DNA of 64,000 nt from assembly GCA_000702845.1 (NCBI GenBank), contig JNKK01000010.1, positions 1 through 64,000 on the forward strand. Direction: 5' to 3'. This stretch comes from Lachnospiraceae bacterium FE2018. Lineage in GTDB: Bacteria > Bacillota > Clostridia > Lachnospirales > Lachnospiraceae. Made by a program: the position numbers and the translations under genes. The notes beneath the pieces were generated by a model, which was given only the letters and a program-made list of their open reading frames with translations, was not told the origin of the DNA and made no database searches. Below are positions 29,557 to 59,105 of the stretch, piece by piece. The stretch's first letter is position 1; each line of letters begins with the position of its first letter.

Positions 29557-29636
29557 TGCGGCTAACAGGACTCGAACCTGCACGGTCTCCCAATGGAACC
29601 TAAATCCATCGCGTCTGCCAATTCCGCCATAGCCGC
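29557..29636 (-). tRNA. tRNA-Leu (anticodon UAG)
   Basis: A 7-bp acceptor stem GCGGCTA/TAGCCGC, D-arm, anticodon stem ATGGA/TCCAT with loop TTTAGGT, a long variable arm (class II) and T-arm GGTTCGAGTCC are visible. The discriminator is A and no CCA is encoded. Confidence 0.95.
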
Positions 29637-29680
29637 ATATAACCGATTGCAACGGCCGGTGGCTGTTCATAATCGTAATT

Positions 29681-29710
29681 ATCTTACTCCGAGTCGACTT
29701 ATTTTGTCAA
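29681..29710 (-). promoter_or_regulatory. Promoter of tRNA-Leu (and possibly rho)
   Basis: On the minus strand TTGACA (29705-29710) and TAAGAT (29681-29686) are separated by 18 bases, just beyond the terminator of the upstream tRNA cluster. Confidence 0.7.
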
Positions 29711-29729
29711 CCACCGCTATTATACAAAG

Positions 29730-29760
29730 AAAAACGGAAAACATAACGTTTTCCGTTTTT
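29730..29760 (-). terminator. Terminator of the six-gene tRNA cluster
   Basis: ACGGAAAAC, a short loop and GTTTTCCGT are followed by TTTTC on the minus strand, 8 bases after tRNA-Lys. The plus strand also ends in a T-run. Confidence 0.85.
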
Positions 29761-29767
29761 ACATCAA

Positions 29768-29840
29768 TGAAGCATCGGGGACTCGAACCCCGGACAACTT
29801 GATTAAAAGTCAAGTGCTCTACCACCTGAGCTAATGCTCC
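29768..29840 (-). tRNA. tRNA-Lys (anticodon UUU)
   Basis: Acceptor GGAGCAT/ATGCTTC (one G-U pair), D-arm TAGCTCAGGTGGTAGAGC, anticodon stem CTTGA/TCAAG with loop CTTTTAA, T-arm CCGGGGTTCGAGTCCCCG. Discriminator A; no encoded CCA. Last gene of the cluster before the terminator. Confidence 0.96.
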
Positions 29841-29850
29841 ATTTTCTAAA

Positions 29851-29922
29851 CTGGGCCAGCCGGATTCGAACCGACGCATGCAGCAGTCAAAGTGCTGTGC
29901 CTTACCGCTTGGCGATGGCCCA
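29851..29922 (-). tRNA. tRNA-Gln (anticodon UUG)
   Basis: Acceptor TGGGCCA/TGGCCCA, anticodon stem CAGCA/TGCTG with loop CTTTGAC, T-arm GTCGGTTCGAATCCGGC. Discriminator G; no encoded CCA. The U1-A72 start is typical of tRNA-Gln. Confidence 0.96.
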
Positions 29923-29941
29923 TCGTGTCGCCATACGGCAG

Positions 29942-30016
29942 GGTGGATAAAGGGATTCGAACCCTTGATCTCCAGAGCCACAATCTGGCGCGTTAACCAG
30001 CTACGCCATATCCACC
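29942..30016 (-). tRNA. tRNA-His (anticodon GUG)
   Basis: Acceptor GTGGATA/TATCCAC with the extra 5' G(-1) facing C73, anticodon stem CCAGA/TCTGG with loop TTGTGGC, T-arm AAGGGTTCGAATCCCTT. No encoded CCA. Confidence 0.96.
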
Positions 30017-30042
30017 ATTATATATGCGGGAAGGTCTCCCAA

Positions 30043-30116
<74 letters not shown>

Positions 30117-30119
30117 AGA

Positions 30120-30190
30120 AGCAGGTGATGGGAATCGAACCCACATATCCAGCTTGGAAGGCTGGTGTTCTACCACTGAACTACACCTGC
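30120..30190 (-). tRNA. tRNA-Gly (anticodon UCC)
   Basis: Acceptor GCAGGTG/CACCTGC, D-arm TAGTTCAGTGGTAGAAC, anticodon stem CCAGC/GCTGG with loop CTTCCAA, T-arm TGTGGGTTCGATTCCCATC. Discriminator U; no encoded CCA. Confidence 0.96.
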
Positions 30191-30221
30191 ACAGTGCGGC
30201 TTGTAAAAACCCTTCAGCTAA

Positions 30222-30296
30222 TCGGGGTGACAGGATTCGAACCTGCGGCCTCCTGGTCCCAAACCAGGCGCTCTAGCCAAACTGAGCCACACCCCG
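30222..30296 (-). tRNA. tRNA-Pro (anticodon UGG)
   Basis: Acceptor CGGGGTG/CACCCCG, D-arm TGGCTCAGTTTGGCTAGAGC, anticodon stem CCTGG/CCAGG with loop TTTGGGA, T-arm GCAGGTTCGAATCCTGT. Discriminator A; no encoded CCA. First gene of the tRNA cluster. Confidence 0.96.
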
Positions 30297-58419: not shown

Positions 58420-58450
58420 TTTTAGTTTCCTCCATTAACTTAAATTCTCG

Positions 58451-58471
58451 GAGTTTCCTTTGCGGAAACTC
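58451..58471 (-). promoter_or_regulatory. Perfect hairpin just upstream of the rplF ribosome binding site
   Basis: GAGTTTCC (58451-58458) and GGAAACTC (58464-58471) form an 8-bp stem with a 5-base loop, and flanking TAACT/AGTTA can extend it. No U-tract follows. It could protect the mRNA or shape access to the rplF start. Confidence 0.55.
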
Positions 58472-58508
58472 TGTTTTCAGTTAGTTCAATGTATTATTTA
58501 CGGCAATC

Positions 58509-58692
58509 AAAACCTCGAGCGAGATTCATCATGATTTGAGAAAAACCATTGGACAGGAAAATTCAACGAGATCCAGTTCTTAGAATGTTCTTACTGAGGA
58601 AGGCGCTTCCTGACTAAGTTAGAACATCTTAGAAATTAGCTCGGGGGATTTTCCCCTGGTTTTGATCAAATCATATGAATCGAGTGAGTTTT
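58509..58692. repeat. 184-bp imperfect inverted-repeat element between rpsH and rplF
   Basis: Arms of 40 and 36 bases (58509-58548 and 58657-58692) are complementary with only small bulges; shared blocks are AAAAC, ATTCAT, ATGATTTGA and AAAACCA. The 108-base centre contains a second stem of about 18 pairs (58577-58634: TTCTTAGAATGTTCTTACT against AGTTAGAACATCTTAGAA), capped by AGGAAG/CTTCCT, and a GGGGATTTTCCCC hairpin (58643-58656). No coding frame, no U-tract. Either a MITE-like mobile remnant or a structured RNA transcribed with the ribosomal operon. Confidence 0.7.
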
Positions 58693-58703
58693 CTCAGCCT
58701 TCA

Positions 58704-59105
58704 TTACCATACAAACGCAAGAACCTCTCCGCCTACCTGAAGCTTTCTTGCTTCCTTATCGGTAATAACGCCCTTGTTTGTGGAAAGGATTGCGATGCCA
58801 AGTCCGCCGAGAACCTTCGGCAGTTCATCCTTGTTTACGTATACACGCAGACCCGGTTTGGAAATGCGCTTTAGACCTGTGATAATCTTTTCGTTCTTGT
58901 CAGCGCCGTATTTCAGCGTAACATGAATGCTCTTAAACGGGCCGTCATCAACCAGATCGTATTTGGTGATATATCCTTCGTTGACCAGAATGTCAGCGAT
59001 TGCAATCTTCATTCTGGAAGCAGGAATATCTACAGTGTCATGCTTTGCAGCGTTGGCATTACGAATTCTTGTAAGCATATCTGCGATCGGATCGCTCATT
59101 GACAT
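58704..59105 (-). CDS. rpsH: 30S ribosomal protein S8
   Basis: S8 is a primary 16S-binding protein, and in E. coli represses the spc operon by binding its mRNA. The 133 residues show [40 protein letters not shown] and the C-terminal [20 protein letters not shown]. The structured 184-bp element begins right after its stop. Confidence 0.97.

Follow-up and report, generated by a model that had tools for sequence, protein, structure and literature searches.

A hairpin block in the spc operon of Lachnospiraceae bacterium FE2018 as a probable copy of a dispersed hairpin DNA repeat family

The window analysed here, a 64,000-nucleotide stretch of the Lachnospiraceae bacterium FE2018 genome, carries on its minus strand genes of the spc ribosomal operon, in which rpsH (S8, 58704-59105) and rplF (L6, 57880-58419) flank, upstream and downstream respectively, a noncoding block of 198 nt (58502-58699). 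The block, which runs in sense orientation relative to this essential operon, lies after the rpsH stop (58704) and ahead of the rplF start (58419); it shows no terminator-like site on the operon strand and is probably transcribed together with the operon. A second feature, a conserved structured leader recognised by covariation and genome searches, lies outside the block and just upstream of rplF (58425-58484, minus strand). The S8 gene has its top relatives almost exclusively among Lachnospiraceae. Elsewhere on the minus strand of the window are an S4-Clostridia ribosomal leader (RF03140, 51148-51200) and a cluster of seven tRNA genes (29557-30296).

The block folds as a single continuous irregular rod of about 66 pairs, with a minimum free energy (MFE) of -61.4 kcal/mol on the minus strand against a shuffle mean of -43.8 (z = -4.53; none of 200 shuffles as good). 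The first-pass annotation, which had described a structured noncoding block with inverted-repeat ends at 58509-58692, was thus right about the structure and the ends and roughly right about the limits, the true span being slightly longer and forming one rod. Its GGGG/CCCC hairpin is an alternative local fold; in the MFE structure those bases pair with the opposite arm. It had also recognised no described RNA family, and comparison with the Rfam 15 covariance models agrees: no family reached its gathering score or gave a meaningful match at relaxed thresholds, the few microRNA-type matches below gathering score being taken as chance.

All parts of the element lie on the minus strand, and its whole span, used for the first covariance model (R1), is defined by the fold, the covariance search and the alignment with a sister species (G003). 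The 5' outer arm (58667-58699) pairs with the 3' outer arm (58502-58538) in the RNAalifold structure and includes several of the 15 double changes relative to G003, and the 5' middle stem (58648-58661) pairs with the 3' middle stem (58544-58562). Within them lies the centre common to dispersed copies (58560-58649), which is the span of a second model (R2; 74.9 bits, E = 1.2e-14). Copy alignments define three conserved motifs on its 5' side: CTAA (58636-58639), opposite a conserved TGGATC (58570-58575) defined in the same way; CTAAG (58628-58632), with an A.A mismatch in the stem; and a further CTAA (58619-58622), 10 nt from the second. Structure and alignment place the partner of the second motif at CTAAG (58579-58583) and that of the third at TAAG (58590-58593). 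The rod is capped by a tip hairpin, AGGAAG-CGC-CTTCCT (58597-58611), the type of which, as structure and copy comparisons indicate, is exchangeable in other copies.

Same-site comparison covered four other genomes of the genus, one of which (G004) gave no rpsH match. The element occupies the same rpsH-rplF site in G003, and the two other species (G001 and G002) have only a spacer of 81-82 nt. The element of the window's genome (G000) aligns with that of G003 without gaps over 209 nt, with 149 identical positions; among the RNAalifold pairs 48 are unchanged, 15 are changed on both sides, three on one side and none is broken, and the alignment energy lies 10.8 standard deviations below that of column shuffles (z = -10.8). 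Differences at fourfold-degenerate sites amount to 15/64 in rpsH and 13/87 in rplF, so that the element drifts near the neutral-site rate, yet it does so in pairs. The short-spacer sites of G001 and G002 are too diverged to fix the element boundaries, and at the window locus these are ambiguous. The element is absent from this site in 80 other relatives, where the spacer measures 15 to 621 nt, so that the "tens of bases" assumed in the first-pass annotation are not the rule here. Many other Lachnospiraceae (loci L022-L101) carry different long, hairpin-rich blocks in this spacer, several of them of a CTTAG...CTTAG repeat type, and from these sequences the spot looks prone to hairpin insertions.

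Dispersed copies were found by covariance search of related genomes, as the first-pass annotation had envisaged for a mobile element. With R1, built from the G000 and G003 sequences, copies were detected in 5 of 195 genomes, which adds 11 places from three further members of the family. With flanks counted in, these places fold as hairpins at about -131 to -209 kcal/mol, and they have a centre of about 90 nt in common between differing outer arms. R2 extended the count to 25 of 397 family genomes, with per-genome copy numbers that are lower bounds (11 candidates scored per genome); one chromosome (G129) holds 27 copies. The weakest R2 matches (E = 1e-3 to 1e-2), some of them in G129, are backed by the common layout and not by score, and R2 served for copy finding only, structural claims being drawn from RNAalifold and alignment pair counts. 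In the window's own genome the only R2 match at E <= 10 is the spc element itself, and BLAST likewise returned no further copy. Across 341 genomes of the class the R2 search gave no copies outside the family, and a search for the centre in phages, plasmids and viral contigs gave no convincing copy; as far as sampled, the repeat family appears confined to the Lachnospiraceae-type family.

The copies are mostly intergenic, with convergent flanking genes in 22 of 60 (simple ORFs, a few loci being counted twice). Their gene neighbours and orientation vary, which makes a gene-specific cis-acting RNA unlikely. Several genomes contain inverted doublets of the element with a separation of about 245 bp. 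Single loci show further arrangements: a tandem triplet with a spacing of about 280-295 bp (G471, L149:4347-5012), in which the arms of the middle copy look like a hybrid of its neighbours; a copy with a 65-bp perfect arm (L154, G211:C31 near 55345), unusually long for a stable bacterial palindrome; and a copy less than 1 kb from an S4-Clostridia leader (L108, G030:C61), thus also in a ribosomal-protein gene neighbourhood.

The whole hairpin measures about 180-250 nt across copies, with its parts in the following order, read 5' to 3'. The 5' half begins with a foot, GGACG, followed by a unique arm of about 20-65 bp, a mid-arm of few types and the CTAA motifs at fixed spacings of 7 and 10 nt; the 3' half runs from the exchangeable tip through the matching TAAG motifs and TGGATY to a mid-arm with GCTAAnnGCGCC, the arm and CTG. 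Of the 76 distinct copies, 49 have a GACG foot at the pairing end, and in 35 of these 49 the 3' arm is followed by TG; the GGACG...CTG feet are absent from the window copy. The outer arms are complementary within each copy and nearly unique between copies. In an alignment of 13 copies, 19 of the 22 centre pairs show double changes, and pairing in the centre reaches 92%, compared with 67% for shuffles and no more than 45% for slid controls.

RNA stems tolerate G.U pairs and not A.C. In the arms of 58 copies, compared regardless of strand and with some internal-loop positions counted as mismatches, G.U and A.C numbered 76 and 81; a recount restricted to isolated mismatches in 76 copies gave 16 and 17, and the window copy has no G.U and one A.C. 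The stem of the adjacent rplF leader, by comparison, has 12 G.U and two A.C. Since both mismatches are equally common in the arms, these behave as a DNA palindrome, and the palindrome looks to be maintained as DNA. Template switching between inverted repeats is established elsewhere as a process that homogenises arms (PMC8604942; PMC7202029), and it would be the simplest cause of the kept complementarity. That mismatched loops persist despite such homogenisation suggests that the loops matter.

Comparison of G129 with G471 shows the history of individual copies. At two loci both genomes carry the element in nearly identical form; at two others G471 has lost the centre and retains the feet and part of the arms; and at a further two the arms have diverged but are still complementary, with tips of different type. 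Within G129, two copies (L238 and L254) have related arms (90% over 42 nt) and differing tips. Together these comparisons suggest that a copied element takes its arms along, that the two arms afterwards drift together and that the tips are exchanged faster. Clean empty sites were sought between G129 and G471, where internal deletions were found instead, and no target-site duplication was detected at these deletions or against the highly diverged G001/G002 spacers. The IS200-type/Y1 transposase (RAYT, PF01797) had no match in four copy-carrying genomes (G085, G442, G303 and G413), which are drafts, so the absence is not absolute; an association of Y1/RAYT with the repeats was rejected, as no correlation was seen, and a Y1 transposase seems not to be needed.

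Several known systems resemble the repeat in part. In ERIC/RU-1 and YPAL/RU-2 the whole sequence, ends included, is common to the copies, whereas the Lachnospiraceae outer arms are nearly unique per copy and only the centre and feet are common; the hosts are unrelated, and the comparison is one of description, not of sequence. The likeness is that of noncoding, intergenic, multi-copy hairpin repeats, those elements being about 127-168 bp long, hairpin-folding and without a transposase of their own (PMC2229807, PMC2759123). With MITEs the family shares dispersed, multi-copy, noncoding repeats (27 in G129; 25/397 genomes), and it lacks terminal inverted repeats of common sequence, only the short feet being common. 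REP and CGTC-REP elements are likewise palindromes with an unpaired foot tag, found between or downstream of genes and in inverted doublets, CGTC-REP combining a 5' CGTC tag, an 8-9 bp stem and a CCA tail with no dedicated transposase (PMC3733652). The complement of the GGACG foot also contains CGTC; however, the CGTC tag and the CCA-like tail lie at opposite ends, and the hairpin, at about 180-250 nt and with outer arms of 20-65 bp, falls outside that class. It differs equally from REP/RAYT systems, with their 20-40 bp palindromes and GTAG tag, in its length, its GGACG foot and the lack of a PF01797 match in the four draft carrier genomes. Integron attC sites, which stand in cassette arrays, have conserved ends and a variable centre; their palindromes are imperfect, their stems vary, and it is the folded single strand, with its strand-asymmetric bulges, that is recognised. 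The repeat is likewise an imperfect palindrome with a variable stem, but its centre is conserved and its arms vary, which sets it apart from attC; no cassettes were seen beside the repeats, the tandem copies of G471 being element repeats without cassettes.

The block is thus probably one copy of a dispersed MITE/REP-like hairpin DNA repeat family, retained in the spc operon as an inherited relic. Judged provisionally against open-access papers, this repeat family is apparently new to the literature. The MITE-like insertion proposed in the first-pass annotation holds insofar as related genomes carry dispersed copies and the site is empty in two congeneric species, and it is qualified by the single copy in the window's genome. 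A lone copy without the GGACG...CTG feet indicates that mobility there is historical. A folded single strand or a cruciform may be, or may once have been, the form in which the repeat spreads, with a putative recombinase or transposase recognising the foot and the internal-loop motifs. The arms would then drift at about the neutral rate, their complementarity being kept, most simply, by template switching, and the mismatched CTAA loops would be held by selection or by exchange between copies. The window copy would go back to one old insertion downstream of the rpsH stop codon that two sister species have inherited. The search for terminator-like sites on the operon strand gave none within the element, and presumably for this reason the insertion was tolerated. 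The centre may also be under purifying selection for a host function, and a secondary role of the window copy in the transcript is possible. More tentatively, the family might be a hairpin DNA element of a class of its own: its arms would be continually rewritten in concert, and its multi-loop centre, recognised in folded single-stranded form by a putative enzyme or host protein, would be kept and also exchanged among copies.

Among the other explanations, the spc copy might have been co-opted as a transcribed RNA hairpin, e.g., an RNase III processing or mRNA-stability site that splits the operon halves. The sense orientation in an essential operon without a terminator on that strand, the pairing kept over roughly neutral divergence between two species and the long, varied hairpin-rich spacers of other family members are consistent with such a role; it is nevertheless unlikely, as two congeneric species do without the element, dispersed copies without fixed orientation keep their pairing equally well, and the window copy, like the family, shows no G.U excess. 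Rather improbable, too, is the view of the repeats as host chromosomal sites, i.e., cruciform-prone intergenic sequences to which a nucleoid or topology protein binds. The presence of about 27 copies in a single chromosome, the mostly intergenic positions with common convergent neighbours and the internal-loop motifs of conserved spacing would suit it, but the distribution is patchy, copies have been lost between two species and the window's genome has a single copy.

Control of the spc operon by the block as a cis-regulatory RNA sensing S8 or another ribosomal protein, which the first-pass annotation had also proposed, is very improbable. Position and structure speak for it, as does the repression of the spc operon by S8 in E. 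coli (PMC10931766), and the element resembles the S4-Clostridia leaders (RF03140) in being a structured block in a ribosomal operon of Clostridia; in contrast to these, it has no Rfam match, is not conserved at its locus and also occurs near unrelated genes. Beyond the window's genome it occupies the rpsH-rplF site in one sister species only, and is missing there from two congeneric species and 80 other relatives; the multiple copies elsewhere are tied to no fixed gene or orientation, the arm mismatches bear no wobble signature, and the adjacent rplF leader suits the role far better. Finally, chance or decayed sequence without organised structure, for which only the single copy in its own genome would speak, is refuted by the comparative data: the z-scores against shuffles and column shuffles, and the same centre in homologues from many genomes.

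Setting the hairpin block aside points to the compact conserved leader before rplF. Its layout, AACUGAAAACAGA-covarying stem-UCCGANAAUYUAAGU followed by a Shine-Dalgarno sequence, is seen in the window and in L022-L105, L224-L229 and L255-L282. The stem is 98.8% paired, with 80 double-change cells against 22 in shuffles. Of 250 family genomes, 75 contain the leader, each a single time; a second family of the class has it in three species, and it precedes rplF by 12-19 nt in all 34 cases retrieved. In L055, L077, L090 and L099 its closing helix is predicted to use the start of the Shine-Dalgarno sequence. It has no meaningful match in Rfam, and the 20 leaders of Eckert and Weinberg include no L6 or S8 leader (PMC7247131); spc operon regulation in B. 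subtilis and other species has been stated to be unknown (PMC10931766). These sequence features make the rplF leader a good candidate for autoregulation of the second half of the spc operon, and a better candidate ribosomal-protein sensor than the hairpin element.

The repeat family itself adds an unusual anatomy, with a common centre and feet, nearly unique complementary arms and exchangeable tips, and it offers many natural replicates for the persistence and evolution of long palindromes in bacterial chromosomes. The count of G.U against A.C on the presumed RNA strand is a simple check that separates such DNA palindromes from equally covarying structured RNAs.
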